From: a virus
Length of the DNA stretch: 27,230 nucleotides
Reading direction: 5' to 3' (one strand)
Virus record (IMG/VR): IMGVR_UViG_3300017776_000141
Span: 1-27,230 of that record
Shown here: piece by piece, positions 3,174-15,876 of the stretch
Position numbering within the stretch: position 1 is the stretch's first letter
How the letters are laid out: every line of letters starts with the position of its first letter
Made by a program: the position numbers and the translations under genes
The notes under the pieces: model-generated
The model's database searches: none
What the model saw: the letters and a program-made list of their open reading frames with translations, nothing else
Told to the model about the DNA's origin: nothing

Positions 3174-3191
3174 CTAAGTGCCACTATTAGA
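3174..3191 (+). promoter_or_regulatory. probable phage RNA polymerase promoter, copy 1
   Basis: The 18 bases CTAAGTGCCACTATTAGA occur here, eight bases after the large terminase gene, and again at 12260-12277 before the ssDNA-binding protein gene. The core CCACTATTAGAG resembles the T7 promoter core (CTCACTATAGGGAG). Perfect identity of 18 bases in two separate intergenic gaps suggests a site for the phage's own polymerase. Next to the presumed genome end it would match the position of T7 phiOR. The start of transcription is not known. Confidence 0.6.
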
Positions 3192-4424: not shown

Positions 4425-5345
4425 ATGAAAAAAGCAAATGAAATAGTAAAACATGTTACTGAACATCTAATAAAACAGATGGAAAGTGACGATGGTGGCA
4501 AGTGGTTGAAGGGGTGGACTAATAAAGCTTTTCAAAATGTAGACGGACACAATTATTCAGGAATGAATTTATTTTGGTTGTCTATGATTGCAGAAGGTTT
4601 TTTGGGTGAACCTAAAGAGCGTAAAGTTTACGGAACTTATTTGCAATGGAAAAATAAAGGTTGTCAGGTTAAGAAGGGTTCAAAGTCTGTACAGCTTTTA
4701 AAACCTATAATTGGTTCTAAAGATGTAGAAGTAGAAACACCTAATGGAACTGAAACAGCAACTAGACACTATAAATTCTTTTCAACTTTCAATGTGTTTA
4801 ATATTGAAGACGTTGAAGGCAACGTGTCTAGATGGGACAATGTAGACAACCCACAACAAAAAAGTGAAGTTGAAGTGTCTGAAGTTGCTGAAAGTTACGT
4901 TAAAAATACAGGTGCAATTATCAACCATATTGATGGTGGTAACGCATATTACGTACCATCTCAGGACGTGATATTCATGCCTGATAAAACTAACTTTATA
5001 CATACAAAGAATGCCAGTGCAACTGATGGATATTACGGAACTTTATTCCATGAACTAACACACTGGACAGGTGACGCAACTAGATGTGACAGGAAAATGA
5101 GTGGTTGGAAGGGTTCAACTGACTACGCATTCGAAGAATTAGTTGCTGAAATGGGTAGTGCATTCCTATGCAATCAACTAGGCATTAGTGCAACACCACG
5201 TGTAGACCATGCTAAGTATTTAAAATCATGGATAAGATGCTTAAAGGATAAACCTACAGCACTAATGAATGCTAGTGGGTTAGCTAATAAATCACTTATA
5301 TACTTAAATGAGTTGCAACCTAAGGCACTCAAAAAAGTAGCATAG
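4425..5345 (+). CDS. ardC: ArdC-type antirestriction protein (ssDNA-binding plus zincin domain)
   Basis: The product has 306 residues, close to the usual length of ArdC. The N-terminal half (about 1-110) matches the ArdC N-terminal DNA-binding domain, with features such as WLKGW, NYSGMNLFWL and YGTYLQWKNKGCQVKKGSKS. The C-terminal half is a zincin-like metallopeptidase fold with HELTH at 209-213 and the downstream helix FEELVAEMGSAF (about 236-247), which provides the third metal ligand. ArdC proteins protect incoming plasmid or phage DNA from restriction. The gene sits at the entry end of the genome, like T7 gp0.3 (Ocr), but is unrelated to it. It has its own promoter, operator and terminator and is likely silenced in the lysogen. 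Confidence 0.9.
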   Translation: MKKANEIVKHVTEHLIKQMESDDGGKWLKGWTNKAFQNVDGHNYSGMNLFWLSMIAEGFLGEPKERKVYGTYLQWKNKGCQVKKGSKSVQLLKPIIGSKDVEVETPNGTETATRHYKFFSTFNVFNIEDVEGNVSRWDNVDNPQQKSEVEVSEVAESYVKNTGAIINHIDGGNAYYVPSQDVIFMPDKTNFIHTKNASATDGYYGTLFHELTHWTGDATRCDRKMSGWKGSTDYAFEELVAEMGSAFLCNQLGISATPRVDHAKYLKSWIRCLKDKPTALMNASGLANKSLIYLNELQPKALKKVA

Positions 5346-7943: not shown

Positions 7944-9176
7944 ATGAGTAATATAAGTCGAGAAGCCATACTAAAATTGCACTCAGGTATTCGAATGAGA
8001 GGTAATACATTGGAAGTGCATACAAGAAAAAAGATGATAGTAGATGGCAACCAAGTAAAAGATAGTGCGTATGATACTATTAAACTAAATGATACAAGTG
8101 ATACATCTTTTAAGAAGGCACTTGCAGAAGCTATAAAGCTAAAAGAAAAACATAATGAAGCATTAGTTCCTGCTAATTATCATAGTCGTAAACAAGGCAA
8201 AAAATCCATTACTAAAGGTACATTAAAAGAATGTTTAGATATGACATTTAAAAAGCAATGGGAGAATGGAAACAATGTAACTAATATAAAAATATATATC
8301 AGAGACATATTAAATTATTTTCCACCGACAATTACATTGGCAGAAATGCAAACTGATGCACACTACAATGGCTTTGTAAATTACATGAAGAAGACTATTG
8401 AAGAACGACCAACAAACAATCTAGCAACTTTTAATAACAGGACAACTAATCATAGACTTTCTGTATTAAGAGAAACTTTTAGAGAAGCTATATCTAAACG
8501 TATGTTAGAACAATCTAAGTTACTTAATCCTGATGTAAGAGTTAGAGATATGGGTTGGAGTAATTTGCATGTCATAGAAAGTAAAAGCAAGAAACCAATT
8601 AGCAGAGAAGACGAAGCTAGAATTATGGAATTAGCTTATGCTAACAATGATGAAGAACATGCTGATGCAATGCAATTTTTAATAAATGGTTTGGGTGCAA
8701 GATTGCAATTTGAATTTTTTGACCCACAATACAACATTGATTGCATTGATTATAAACATAAAACTATTAATTTTTTTCGGCACAAAACACAACAATGGTC
8801 AGGTGATTTACCTTTAAATAATACTGCCTATAACATTGCTGTTAAGTATAGAGAAACTGCAATAGCACATAAATCTAGAAAATTATTTCCGAATGTAACT
8901 GTAAGAAGTATGAGAACTTTTTTTGAAAAATATGGAAAGTTATTAGAGATAAAAAATTTTACACCTTATGCTACAAAGCACACATTTATAACAAGATTAT
9001 GCGAAACAAAAACACCTGTAAAAGTTATATCTAAACTTGCAGGGATAAGCATTGAAACTGTATTAAAATACTACGCACAAGAAACACCCCAAGCATTAAG
9101 GGAAGCTGTAAATAGTATTAATGATAGTAACATTGTTTCTTTAATTGGTCATAACTCTAAAGGGTTGATTAAATAA
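7944..9176 (+). CDS. int: tyrosine recombinase (phage integrase)
   Basis: The product has 410 residues with AGGAG before the start. The layout is an N-terminal arm-binding part, a core-binding helical part (about 85-205) and a C-terminal catalytic part. The first catalytic Arg is probably R253 in LGARLQ, the beta-hairpin Lys is K281, and the nucleophile is Y376 or Y377 in ETVLKYYAQ. Box II reads PYATKHTF (341-348), so the usual His and second Arg are Tyr and Lys. Box III reads LAGIS, so the usual His is Gly367. The gene lies directly upstream of a tRNA-Leu sequence, a typical integration target. Integrases of this kind occur in temperate T7-like phages of SAR11 bacteria. Confidence 0.9.
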   Translation: MSNISREAILKLHSGIRMRGNTLEVHTRKKMIVDGNQVKDSAYDTIKLNDTSDTSFKKALAEAIKLKEKHNEALVPANYHSRKQGKKSITKGTLKECLDMTFKKQWENGNNVTNIKIYIRDILNYFPPTITLAEMQTDAHYNGFVNYMKKTIEERPTNNLATFNNRTTNHRLSVLRETFREAISKRMLEQSKLLNPDVRVRDMGWSNLHVIESKSKKPISREDEARIMELAYANNDEEHADAMQFLINGLGARLQFEFFDPQYNIDCIDYKHKTINFFRHKTQQWSGDLPLNNTAYNIAVKYRETAIAHKSRKLFPNVTVRSMRTFFEKYGKLLEIKNFTPYATKHTFITRLCETKTPVKVISKLAGISIETVLKYYAQETPQALREAVNSINDSNIVSLIGHNSKGLIK

Positions 9177-9206: not shown

Positions 9207-9291
9207 GGGCGAGTGGTGAAATTGGCAGACACGTCAGTCTTAGAAACTGATTTCGAGAGAAGTGAAGGTTCAAGTCCTTTCTCGCCCACCA
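9207..9291 (+). tRNA. tRNA-Leu (anticodon UAG), complete, with CCA
   Basis: A full 85-base cloverleaf can be folded. The acceptor stem GGGCGAG pairs perfectly with CTCGCCC (9281-9287), followed by A and an encoded CCA. The D arm contains GGTGAAATTGGCAGAC. The anticodon stem TCAGT/ACTGA holds the loop CTTAGAA with anticodon TAG at 9241-9243. A long variable arm (9251-9263) is typical of leucine tRNA, and the T arm is GAAGG-TTCAAGT-CCTTT. It starts 31 bases after the integrase stop. It may be both a working tRNA and the attP core shared with the host gene. Confidence 0.93.
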
Positions 9292-9597: not shown

Positions 9598-10575
9598 ATG
9601 TCTAATACACAAGATAATTTACTACAACAACAGTTAGCTGAATTAGTTAAGGTTGGTGTAGGTGGTAAATTTAAGGATACAAAAGACTACACAAAGAAAA
9701 TACAGGAAGAAATAGAATTTGAAGAAAAGATGATTAGAGGTGGTATTGATAGATACAAACATTTAGTCACCGAAGCACAAGCTAAGAAGCAAGAAAGTAC
9801 GACCATGTATGGTCTATTTCACCAACAAAAATACATAGATAAACTCTCTAGTTTAATCCATTTGAAGGTAGAAAAAATAGATACAGGACAAGTAGGAACA
9901 CACCATATTGCTGTTAAAAAAATAGTGCAGTGTTTACCTAAAAGTGCTTTTAATGAAGACACTAAAAAAATGTCTAATAATCAGGCAATATTTGACACTT
10001 GTTCATTGATTATTTTGAAGAATGTAATTGATGGTATTTCCAGTGATTGCACCCTTAATAAATTATCAATTATTATAGGCAATGCGTTAATGCTTGAAGC
10101 TAGAATACTCTTATTCAAAGACCAAAAGAAGAAGGAATATGAGCAGGTATCTAAACGATTAGAAGGTAAGAACGTACCTCAGAAAACTAATAGATGGCAG
10201 TATAAAAAGAATGTTTGGGTCTATTGTATGAATAGGCATGAACTTCAATTTGACGATTGGACTAAAGAACATAGACTGCATTTAGGTGTTCAGATGATAC
10301 ATTTATGTGAACTCTTAGGACTTGTTAAGGTAGGTAATATGAAACTTAATAAAACCAAGACAATTACATACGTACAACCAACACCAAAAATTATTAAAGA
10401 AATAAAAAACTTTAATATTAAAAATGAAGCACTGTTTCCTAAGTATTTACCTATGCTTATGCCACCTAGAAAATGGACTTCACCTTTTATTGGTGGGTAC
10501 TATGGTAAGAAACATAATTTTGAAAACAAACCTGAGGAGATAGCACATGCACTACAATCTAGTAAAAGCAAGTAA
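9598..10575 (+). CDS. T7-type RNA polymerase, N-terminal part (N-domain and thumb)
   Basis: The product has 325 residues and matches the N-terminal part of single-subunit phage RNA polymerases. It ends shortly after LMPPRKWTSPFIGGYY, which corresponds to the PPKPWT...GGGYW segment near residue 410-425 of T7 RNA polymerase (883 aa), close to the thumb/palm border. It therefore includes the promoter-binding N-domain and thumb but none of the catalytic aspartates. AAGGAG at 9581-9586 precedes the ATG. The frame ends with TAA at 10573-10575, overlapping the second polymerase gene by 29 bases in another frame. Two separate subunits, programmed frameshifting or a sequencing error could all explain this. 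Confidence 0.85.
   Translation: MSNTQDNLLQQQLAELVKVGVGGKFKDTKDYTKKIQEEIEFEEKMIRGGIDRYKHLVTEAQAKKQESTTMYGLFHQQKYIDKLSSLIHLKVEKIDTGQVGTHHIAVKKIVQCLPKSAFNEDTKKMSNNQAIFDTCSLIILKNVIDGISSDCTLNKLSIIIGNALMLEARILLFKDQKKKEYEQVSKRLEGKNVPQKTNRWQYKKNVWVYCMNRHELQFDDWTKEHRLHLGVQMIHLCELLGLVKVGNMKLNKTKTITYVQPTPKIIKEIKNFNIKNEALFPKYLPMLMPPRKWTSPFIGGYYGKKHNFENKPEEIAHALQSSKSK
10534..10549 (+). promoter_or_regulatory. strong Shine-Dalgarno and start of the second RNA polymerase part
   Basis: GAGGAG at 10534-10539 lies seven bases before the ATG at 10547, inside the end of the first polymerase gene. The second frame has a TAG stop at 10541-10543, so this ATG is the first possible ATG of that frame. This supports independent initiation of the second half. 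Confidence 0.65.
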
Positions 10576-12241
10576 TAGAAGATATTTAGAAGAATTAAAT
10601 AACAAGGTGCATGAGATGCCAGTTGTTTATGACAGTGTAAATATTATACAAGAAACGGAATGGGTTATTAATAAACCTGTTTATGATTTAATTAAAACAT
10701 GTATGGATAATGATTTTAATTTAGGTCAGTTACCAGTCAATCCACAATCAACTGAGTTACCACCTAAACCATTTGACATTAAAACAAACAAAGAAGCATT
10801 AATTAAATGGAAGCGAGAAGCACAACAAGTACATAAAGCTATAGGTCAATCTATGTCTAAATTTATTCAAGTTAGACTAATTATGGAAGAAGCAAGTATG
10901 TTGTTAGATAAAGGTGGTTTCTTTTATCCACATCAATTTGATTTTAGATTTCGTATTTATCCTAAACCTGCATTGCTTTCACCACAATCAGCCGATTATT
11001 CAAGAGCATTACTTAAATTTAAATTTGGTAAACGAATGGGTAAAGGCGACAGTGTAAGTACATTCAACATTGCAGGTGCAAACTTGTATGGTGAAGTAGA
11101 TAAAATGGAGTTGCCAGTTAGAGAACAATGGGTGCAAGATAATTCAAAAAAAATTATTGCGTCAGCTAACAATCCACTAGAAAATACATGGTGGTGTGAT
11201 GCAGATAAACCATATTGTTTTCTTGCATGGGCTATAGAATATAGAGATTTTGCAGAAAGCAATTACTCACCTGAGTTTATAACTACATTGCCTATACAAG
11301 CTGATTGTTCTAACTCAGGACTACAGCATTATTCAGCAATGATGAGAGACCCTATTGGTGGTAAAGCTACTAATTTAGTTCCATCTAATAAACCTAATGA
11401 TGTTTATAATTTAGTTGCACAAAAACTAATTATGAAACTTAGAGATATTAAAGATGACCCACTAGCTAAGAAGTGGTTAGAGTATGGAATAGATAGGAAG
11501 CTATGTAAGAAACCAGTGATGTGTTTACCATATTCATTGACAAAGTTTTCATGCAGAAAATATATTGAAGACCACATGAAAAAACAATTAAATGAACGAA
11601 ATGTATCTATAGATATATTTAAAGTATCAGACAGAGAAGATGGTATTTTTGAAGCAACAAACTGGCTAACACCTGTATTGTGGGAAAGTATCAATGAGAT
11701 AATTGTTGGTGCTAAAGAAATAATGAAGTTCTTAAAAGATATAGCTAAACTGGTTGCATCAGAAAATTTACCAGTAAGTTGGACTTCACCATTAAATGCA
11801 CCTATTCAAATGCTTTGTTATGAAAAAGAAAGCAGACGAGTTAAGACACAAATGGGTGATAGTATTGTTAAACTTTCAGTAGCACATGATACCCCTAACA
11901 TATCAAAAAGGGCTACAAGTCTAGGTATATGTCCTAACTTTATACATGCTAATGATGGAGCAGTTTTACAATTAGCTGTAGTAAAAGCTAAAGAACTGGG
12001 TGTAGATAATTTTAGTATGATTCATGACAGTTTTGGGTGTGTGGCTAGTGACAGTCATTTAATGGGTAAAGCATTAAGAGAAGCATTTTGTGAGATATAT
12101 CAAAAAGATGTATTGAAGAATTTTGCTGATGAAATGTATGCAATGTTATCTGAGAAAAATCAGAAGAAATTTCCTAAAATGCCTAAAAAGGGAGACCTTA
12201 ATTTAGACTTAGTGAAACAATCTGTGTTTTTTTGTATATAA
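10547..12241 (+). CDS. T7-type RNA polymerase, C-terminal catalytic part (palm and fingers)
   Basis: The product has 564 residues and contains all catalytic motifs of T7-type RNA polymerase. Motif A has QADCSNSGLQH with D253 (T7 D537). Motif B has RKLCKKPVMCLPY with R317, K321 and Y329 (T7 R627, K631, Y639). Motif C has IHDSFG with H493 and D494 (T7 D812). PNFIHANDG matches the T7 H784 region. The two parts together have about 880 residues, the length of T7 gp1, so nothing large is missing. The specificity loop (about 405-445) differs from T7, in line with a different promoter. The C-terminus ends in FFCI after a run of seven T, where T7 ends in FAFA. Confidence 0.93.
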   Translation: MHYNLVKASNRRYLEELNNKVHEMPVVYDSVNIIQETEWVINKPVYDLIKTCMDNDFNLGQLPVNPQSTELPPKPFDIKTNKEALIKWKREAQQVHKAIGQSMSKFIQVRLIMEEASMLLDKGGFFYPHQFDFRFRIYPKPALLSPQSADYSRALLKFKFGKRMGKGDSVSTFNIAGANLYGEVDKMELPVREQWVQDNSKKIIASANNPLENTWWCDADKPYCFLAWAIEYRDFAESNYSPEFITTLPIQADCSNSGLQHYSAMMRDPIGGKATNLVPSNKPNDVYNLVAQKLIMKLRDIKDDPLAKKWLEYGIDRKLCKKPVMCLPYSLTKFSCRKYIEDHMKKQLNERNVSIDIFKVSDREDGIFEATNWLTPVLWESINEIIVGAKEIMKFLKDIAKLVASENLPVSWTSPLNAPIQMLCYEKESRRVKTQMGDSIVKLSVAHDTPNISKRATSLGICPNFIHANDGAVLQLAVVKAKELGVDNFSMIHDSFGCVASDSHLMGKALREAFCEIYQKDVLKNFADEMYAMLSEKNQKKFPKMPKKGDLNLDLVKQSVFFCI

Positions 12242-12259: not shown

Positions 12260-12277
12260 CTAAGTGCCACTATTAGA
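12260..12277 (+). promoter_or_regulatory. probable phage RNA polymerase promoter, copy 2
   Basis: The 18 bases are identical to 3174-3191. The element lies in the 61-base gap between the RNA polymerase and ssDNA-binding protein genes, at the boundary between early and middle genes where T7 has a class II promoter. It would drive the replication operon. Confidence 0.65.
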
Positions 12278-13783: not shown

Positions 13784-15347
13784 CACTTTCATAAGACATG
13801 CACCTTGCGAAAATTGTGGTAGCCGAGACAACCTAGCTATCTACCTAAACCATACCTACTGTTTTGGTTGCCACAACTACGAAAAAACTCATGGCGAACT
13901 TCCTAAAGTTGCCACAACGAAACAAAATATAAATATGATAAGTGGAATAACAGAAGCATTACCTAAAAGAAAATTAAACAGTGAAACTTGTAAAGTCTTT
14001 AAATATGAGACTGGAACATACAATGGTAAGAATTGCCATATCGCTAATTACTTTGACAAAGATTACAACAAAGTAGCACAGCATCTAAGGTTTCCTGATA
14101 AGTCGTTTATATGGATTGGAGATACCACAAATATTTCCCTCTTTGGTCAGCACTTGTGGAGAGATGGTGGTAAGAATATTATCATTACAGAAGGTGAACT
14201 TGACGCAATGTCTGTATCACAAATGCAGAACAATCGTTATCCAGTGGTATCAGTACCTAGTGGTTCTGCAAGTGCTAAGAAATATATTAAAAGAGAATTA
14301 GAATGGTTATCTAAATTTGAAAACATTGTATTGATGTTTGATAATGATGAAGCAGGAAACAAAGCATCTATTGAGTGTGCAAATATTTTACCAGTAAGAA
14401 AAGTTAAGATTGCAAAACTACAAGAAAAAGATGCAAGTGATTTGTTACAAAAAGGATTAGGTTCTAAAATTATAGATGCCATGTGGGAAGCTAAAGCATA
14501 TACACCACAAGGTATTATTCAAGGTTCAGATACTAAAGACTTACTATTAAATGATGAAGAAGTAGAAAGTATTCCTTATCAATGGAATGGATTAAATGAA
14601 AAACTACAAGGCATTAGATTTGGTGAACTAAATTTATTATGTGGTGGTTCAGGAACAGGTAAATCTCAAATGTGTAGAGAGATTGCTTATGACTGTATTC
14701 TTAAAGGTCACAAGGTTGGCTACATTGCATTAGAAGAAAGTGTAAAAAGAAGTATCAGAGGAATAGTAAGTGTAGGATTAAATGCACAAATACATAATCC
14801 TGATGTTAGAAAAAAATTTAGTGAAGAAAAATTATTAGAAGAATTTGATAAAGTAAAAGACAACATTTGTTTCTATGACCATTTTGGTTCTAGTGACAGT
14901 GAAGATTTAATGAACCGAATAAGATACATGGTTCAATCATTAGACTGCAAAGTAATTATCTTAGACCACATCTCAATAGTTATCTCAGGATTACATGATG
15001 GAGATGAGAGAAGATTAATAGATAATACAATGACAGAGTTAAGAAAACTTGTTGAAGAAGTTAAATGTGCAATGTTTGTAGTATCACATTTAAAAAGACC
15101 TTCAGGCAATCTAGGACATGAAGAAGGTGTACAAACATCTTTATCACATTTAAGAGGTTCACATTCACTTGCACAGTTATCAGACGCAGTAATAGGTTTT
15201 GAAAGAGACCAACAATCTGAAACTGAAAGCAACATAATGATAGTAAGAGTTTTAAAAAATAGATTTAGTGGAGAGACAGGTGTAGCGACAAGTCTTATTT
15301 ATAATAAAGATACTGGTCGTTTATCTGAAAGTAATTTTGATGAATAA
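13767..15347 (+). CDS. primase-helicase (T7 gp4-like)
   Basis: The product has 526 residues (T7 gp4: 566). The N-terminal zinc finger has C14, C17, C32 and C35. The Toprim primase core follows, with ITEGELDAMS and VLMFDNDEAG. The RecA-like hexameric helicase has Walker A GGSGTGKSQ near residue 293, Walker B VIILDHIS, the loop SHLRGSHSLAQLSDAVIGFER, and the C-terminal KNRFSGETG as in T7. It unwinds DNA and makes primers at the replication fork. AGGAAA lies six bases before the ATG. The gene overlaps the amidase gene by 17 bases and the methyltransferase by eight. Confidence 0.96.
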   Translation: MQENSSTFIRHAPCENCGSRDNLAIYLNHTYCFGCHNYEKTHGELPKVATTKQNINMISGITEALPKRKLNSETCKVFKYETGTYNGKNCHIANYFDKDYNKVAQHLRFPDKSFIWIGDTTNISLFGQHLWRDGGKNIIITEGELDAMSVSQMQNNRYPVVSVPSGSASAKKYIKRELEWLSKFENIVLMFDNDEAGNKASIECANILPVRKVKIAKLQEKDASDLLQKGLGSKIIDAMWEAKAYTPQGIIQGSDTKDLLLNDEEVESIPYQWNGLNEKLQGIRFGELNLLCGGSGTGKSQMCREIAYDCILKGHKVGYIALEESVKRSIRGIVSVGLNAQIHNPDVRKKFSEEKLLEEFDKVKDNICFYDHFGSSDSEDLMNRIRYMVQSLDCKVIILDHISIVISGLHDGDERRLIDNTMTELRKLVEEVKCAMFVVSHLKRPSGNLGHEEGVQTSLSHLRGSHSLAQLSDAVIGFERDQQSETESNIMIVRVLKNRFSGETGVATSLIYNKDTGRLSESNFDE

Positions 15348-15876
15348 TTTTCCTAAAGGTAAATTTAATATTATCTACTGCGACCCTGCTTGGAAATACG
15401 ATAGTGGTTTTTTAAAAAGAAATTGGTCAAATAAATATCCAACAATGAAACCTGAAGATATTTATAATTTACCAGTAGATAAAATCGCAGATGAGAATTG
15501 TGTTTTATTTATATGGATAACTTACCCAAAACTATTAATTGGTTTAGAAGCAATAAAGAGGTGGGGGTTCACGTATAAATCGTGTGCTTTTACTTGGGTT
15601 AAGAGAAATAAAAAAGCTGATAGTTATTTTTGGGGTATGGGTCATTGGACAAGAGCAAACAGCGAATGTTGTTTTATAGCAGTAAAAGGAAAACCAAAAA
15701 GATTTTCAAAATCAGTACACCAAATAGTAGATTCTAAAATTCAACACCATTCAAAAAAACCCGATTGCGTTAGAGATAGAATTGTAGAACTTTGTGGAGA
15801 CCTTCCAAGAATAGAATTGTTCGCTAGAAATACAACTAAAGGGTGGACAGTTTGGGGAAACGAAGTAAATGAATGA
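15340..15876 (+). CDS. MT-A70 family adenine methyltransferase
   Basis: The product has 178 residues. The catalytic motif DPAW (D15-W18, in IIYCDPAWKYD) is the DPPW motif of MT-A70-type N6-adenine methyltransferases. FIWITYPKLLIGLEAIKRWGFTYK, AFTWVKRNK and the C-terminal RIELFARNTTKGWTVWGNE complete the family pattern. T7 has no counterpart in its replication block. Methylating phage DNA would protect it from host restriction and complement ArdC; a role in gene control is also possible. The start is ATG 15340, inside the end of the helicase gene, and the end overlaps the next gene by eight bases. Confidence 0.92.
   Translation: MNNFPKGKFNIIYCDPAWKYDSGFLKRNWSNKYPTMKPEDIYNLPVDKIADENCVLFIWITYPKLLIGLEAIKRWGFTYKSCAFTWVKRNKKADSYFWGMGHWTRANSECCFIAVKGKPKRFSKSVHQIVDSKIQHHSKKPDCVRDRIVELCGDLPRIELFARNTTKGWTVWGNEVNE

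Follow-up and report, generated by a model that had tools for sequence, protein, structure and literature searches.

In a large marine group of SAR11 phages, the T7-like RNA polymerase (RNAP) is likely made as two separately translated proteins; the split itself is old and kept by selection. The window, meaning the whole stretch of DNA that was analyzed, is an IMG/VR-type virus record of 27,230 bases. Among named phages, Pelagibacter phage HTVC011P (Stopavirus, Autographiviridae) comes closest to it, at 84.7% over 4 kb. The reading we favor, with a probability of about 0.86, is that two overlapping genes give rise to two polymerase chains that would be co-translated and would assemble non-covalently. 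The two genes, called N and C below, agree in coordinates, lengths and 29-nt overlap with a first-pass annotation of the window, and C lies in the +1 frame relative to N. The features are as follows.

9598..10575, + strand: N gene, 325 aa, N-terminal domain of a T7-type RNA polymerase (Pfam RPOL_N, E 2.7e-13)
10547..12241, + strand: C gene, 564 aa, remainder of the T7-type polymerase (Pfam RNA_pol, E 3e-91)
10534..10539, + strand: Shine-Dalgarno (SD) sequence GAGGAG for the C gene, 7 nt 5' of the ATG at 10547
10541..10543, + strand: TAG closing the C frame just upstream of the C start
10547..10558, + strand: C start M-H-Y-N, at one and the same homologous position in all split relatives
10573..10575, + strand: TAA that ends the N frame, lying within C, at a position that differs among relatives

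Together the halves cover phrog_414 from end to end, N matching residues 3-259 (E 5e-39) and C residues 263-814 (E 1e-180). Both were modeled with AF2, separately and as single chains. The model of C (pLDDT 91) aligns over residues 1-564 to T7 RNAP 292-883 (Z 44.5, rmsd 2.6 over 519 residues), and that of N (pLDDT 80) aligns to T7 RNAP 22-288 (Z 20.5, rmsd 2.7 over 236). When the chains are aligned with T7 and other fused polymerases, the last residue of N falls at about T7 291 and the first residue of C at T7 292. Because the predicted folds match T7 RNAP 22-288 and 292-883, the cut is placed inside the N-terminal domain, with the thumb on the C side. The thumb (T7 ~330-411) maps to C41-C122, so that the cut lies about 40 residues ahead of it; the first-pass annotation had put the thumb in the first half and the break near the thumb/palm border, and neither placement holds. 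Its statement that all catalytic residues are in the second half was correct, as T7 D537, R627, K631, Y639, H784 and D812 correspond to C253, C317, C321, C329, C467 and C494. C holds the end of the N-terminal domain, the thumb, palm, fingers, specificity loop and all catalytic residues, and N (~T7 22-291) contains the AT-rich-loop and intercalating-hairpin regions. Beyond a GGYYG motif, N ends in a variable, poorly conserved tail of low pLDDT, longer than the short loop that fused homologues have at the cut.

The polymerase fold and the family's catalytic residues (the equivalents of D537, K631, Y639 and D812) are found in C, and the N-terminal promoter-binding domain is supplied by the N chain. 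In place of the single polypeptide of the family, two genes are found in 197 loci. By fold and gene organization, the window polymerase is a two-chain variant of the T7-type family and not a single-chain member. A separate observation concerns the DX2GR motif, in which the glycine (T7 G424) is replaced by phenylalanine at C135 (window 10949-10951) in both the window and HTVC011P (DFRFR), with D132, R134 and R136 present in the window. Locus L054 has serine at this position (DFRSR), and the other relatives checked have DFRGR.

The position of the cut raises the possibility that C is the polymerase by itself, and that N is a separate promoter-recognition subunit, exchangeable or dissociating in the manner of a sigma factor and not a permanent partner. 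N holds both the AT-rich-loop and the intercalating-hairpin regions, and the cut separates nearly the whole of the part of T7 RNAP that refolds when the enzyme leaves the promoter. The model of isolated N is nearest to the elongation-state fold (Z 20, compared to 13.5 for the promoter complex), although AF2's choice of one conformer for a chain modeled alone carries little weight. The gene order speaks against an exchangeable subunit: wherever the flanking sequence suffices, N and C are neighbors, and a single N gene was found in each locus. We consider such a sigma-like role for N unlikely. If true, N would join the catalytic C chain for initiation at phage promoters and might then depart or be exchanged, so that a T7-type polymerase would go through a sigma-like cycle and a temperate SAR11 phage would gain a switch.

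The junction in other phages bears on whether N and C are two separately translated genes. All loci fetched that span the junction comprise 197 split and 96 fused examples, the fused outgroups being drawn from IMG/VR scans and isolates. Some of these loci are overlapping fetches of one contig, so distinct junctions were counted, and the split loci represent 102. They include IMG/VR contigs, the isolates HTVC041P, HTVC025P, Eyrgjafa and Gjalp, the fosmid phage S30-C28 and Chosvirus KM23-C739, as well as 13 genome contigs, 12 of them labeled Pelagibacteraceae or Pelagibacter, with single-cell genomes among the sources. A comparison with related phages had been proposed as a check in the first-pass annotation; in it, all junction-spanning relatives but HTVC011P, which has a continuous frame, proved split, a pattern beyond chance.

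The start of C is present as [M/V]H[Y/F]N at one homologous codon in 102/102 junctions. Within this motif H2 and N4 are invariant (102/102), and M1 and Y3 are each kept in 97/102, with V replacing M in five and F replacing Y in five. Fused polymerases lack an MHYN-type motif at the corresponding position. An SD core precedes the C start in 101/102 distinct junctions, versus 8% of other ATGs within C genes. The end of N behaves differently from this fixed start: distances from the N stop to the C start are -32, -29, -20, -11, -1, +1, +5, +9, +131 and +497 nt (negative where the stop lies inside C), and all three frame relations occur. On the tree, the C start stayed put through no fewer than 20 changes of this distance and eight of the relative frame. 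The relatives keep and vary the junction as two genes would, which bears out the earlier proposal of a genuine second start, served by a ribosome-binding site of its own. These junctions show that the split is real and clade-wide. In HTVC025P, 497 nt and two other ORFs separate the halves. The two ORFs (L004 2958-3358) are small, and neither has a convincing PHROG match. An intron at the junction was also considered; no Rfam intron family matched in the window, HTVC025P, HTVC041P or L054, and the halves require neither intron nor intein splicing.

Programmed ribosomal frameshifting could in principle join both frames into one polymerase chain. In its favor, overlapping frames related by +1 are the commonest arrangement, and at most junctions there is some stretch without a stop in either frame. 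Against it, three lineages (gaps of +9, +131 and +497) offer no place for a shift, and the shift would need to switch between +1 and +2/-1 along with each of the changes of frame on the tree. Across the relatives, neither a shift window nor a constant direction of shift is maintained. Frameshifting would also make the conserved start codon and SD sequence superfluous. We regard a fused product of this kind as very unlikely. Because the C start and its SD are conserved, the N stop wanders and three lineages lack a shift window, frameshifting and sequencing error, which together formed the main alternative in the first-pass annotation, are excluded as general explanations.

In a maximum-likelihood tree of the C regions, all split sequences form one clade (100/100) inside the fused Autographiviridae. 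The first 12 residues were omitted, so the start motif does not drive the grouping. Because the split sequences form one such clade among fused relatives, the tree shows a single origin of the split followed by long retention. Members of the clade drop to 38% identity, with Chosvirus-type phages at ~38-43%. Between Stopavirus-type pairs, dN/dS is 0.05-0.15 for N and 0.08-0.20 for C; Chosvirus-type pairs give 0.18-0.29, the largest dS values being saturated. Judged by these ratios, purifying selection acts on both halves. As a side observation, Chosvirus KM23-C739 has two neighboring CDSs that are both annotated as capsid protein (L334 21756-22832), and its capsid gene is possibly broken or split.

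These values bear on whether the split gene is a decaying polymerase, a pseudogene in a phage that relies on the host enzyme. The wording used for related phages, "fragmented" and "gene interruption" (PMC6811365), would suit such decay. However, both halves evolve under dN/dS of 0.05-0.29, the catalytic residues are intact, the arrangement persists across a highly diverged clade, and promoter-like elements are retained, all of which make decay a scarcely credible account.

HTVC011P (KC465900; locus L166) is the sole fused member of the clade. Its RNAP region is 98.4-99.2% identical to the split contigs L016-L019 and L025, and in every comparison with them HTVC011P lacks one A, at genome position 6937. 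The fused reading lacks an LVK motif that is kept in both fused and split homologues. This pattern suggests either an error in the record or a very recent fusion, and if the missing base is genuine, fusion would appear to be tolerated. A one-base indel in an A-rich stretch could create or remove the split, as the fused HTVC011P illustrates, but we give practically no credence to the window being wrong through sequencing or assembly, since the split recurs at 102 distinct junctions whose sources are IMG/VR contigs, phage isolates and single-cell genomes, Chen et al. saw no unsplit reads for uv-Fonsiphage-EPL (PMC6811365), and a possible error, if there is any, sits in HTVC011P instead.

How would two co-translated chains work as one enzyme? 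Because N and C overlap or lie a few nucleotides apart in most lineages, we infer coupled translation, in which ribosomes finishing or passing the N gene would feed the nearby C start. The chains would then associate without a covalent link, via the same interface that joins the N-terminal domain to the polymerase core within T7 RNAP. Such non-covalent assembly is feasible, as engineered splits of T7 RNAP (PMC4299498) and N4 RNAP II (PMC4496689) both function. The dimer is expected to initiate at T7-like phage promoters with a division of work: N would contribute the elements for upstream DNA and melting, and C the specificity loop and active site. As for the benefit of the split, regulation of assembly, a possibility raised in the first-pass annotation, and neutral fixation with a subsequent ratchet are equally likely.

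A candidate promoter for this enzyme lies close to its own gene.

12262..12277, + strand: candidate T7-type promoter AAGTGCCACTATTAGA, directly 3' of the C gene

The exact 16-mer AAGTGCCACTATTAGA has a second copy at 3176-3191, after the terminase gene. In HTVC011P the 16-mer likewise follows the terminase and polymerase genes, at equivalent positions, and related elements occupy these two places in HTVC025P. An element containing CACT lies just 3' of C in most of the 42 split loci that were examined. In Chosvirus-type loci, GGACACTATAGATGA is found just after C and resembles the T7 promoter core. The two copies of AAGTGCCACTATTAGA are likely phage promoters.

Other features of the window are recorded here in their own right. 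A tRNA-Leu (anticodon tag) at 9207-9291 lies between the integrase (7944-9176) and the polymerase, and this region is likely the attachment site of a temperate phage. An ArdC-type anti-restriction protein (ArdcN + MPTase-PolyVal) is encoded at 4425-5345, and an MT-A70 type adenine methyltransferase at 15337-15876, adjoining the primase and DNA polymerase genes.

The HTVC019Pvirus group III pelagiphages are now classified as Stopavirus, Fussvirus and relatives. A "fragmented" RNA polymerase has already been reported in that group (Chen et al. 2019, PMC6811365). The identical split was described there in HTVC025P, Mediterranean fosmid phages and uv-Fonsiphage-EPL, with HTVC011P noted as the exception, but the fragmentation was stated without explanation. 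The present analysis adds the exact cut, the conserved second start with its SD sequence and the variable junction. It also adds the selection on both halves, the single origin, the spread to Chosvirus-type phages and the base missing from HTVC011P. The paper on the Eyrgjafa and Gjalp phages does not mention the RNAP.

Fused relatives show what has been kept. The fold and catalytic residues are shared with T7 and with fused Autographiviridae such as Bordetella phage BB8 and Roseobacter phage CRP-125, as is the gene neighborhood of RNAP, SSB, endonuclease I, lysozyme and primase. T7 and LUZ100 likewise have annotated phage promoters directly 3' of the polymerase gene. In those fused phages the polymerase is one continuous chain, whereas the window has two genes, an added tail on N and a new MHYN start on C.

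The RNA polymerase II of phage N4 (gp15 + gp16; PDB 6dt7), which belongs to the T7 single-subunit family and naturally consists of two chains, is a purified, active heterodimer (PMC4496689) and serves as the functional precedent. Like the N4 chains, N and C would jointly make up one T7-type polymerase, their predicted fold ranges being complementary. The N4 enzyme is cut at ~T7 453/454, after the thumb and DX2GR, so that its thumb is in the first chain; the window is cut at T7 291/292, and N4 gp16 aligns to C167-C564 only. The N4 polymerase also has a truncated N-terminal domain and requires gp2. Because the cut sites differ, the N4 and pelagiphage splits probably arose independently. The window enzyme likely works as a two-chain T7-type polymerase and is not an N4-type member. 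Next to N4, the pelagiphage split is a second case in which nature has bisected the T7 polymerase; its site is distinct from that of N4, and it is kept across phages of the ocean's commonest bacteria. It offers a natural system for the study of how the N-terminal domain and core communicate, whether the switch from initiation to elongation needs covalent linkage, and how genes become and remain split.

Finally, T7 RNAP has been bisected by design. Engineered split enzymes still transcribe, and the cuts named in the main text are at 67, 179 and 601 (Segall-Shapiro et al. 2014, PMC4299498). The main text of that paper and related papers do not state a split near 291-302, and two further seams go unnamed there. 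The natural cut falls at ~291/292, which makes this position a possible natural split site for engineered polymerases.
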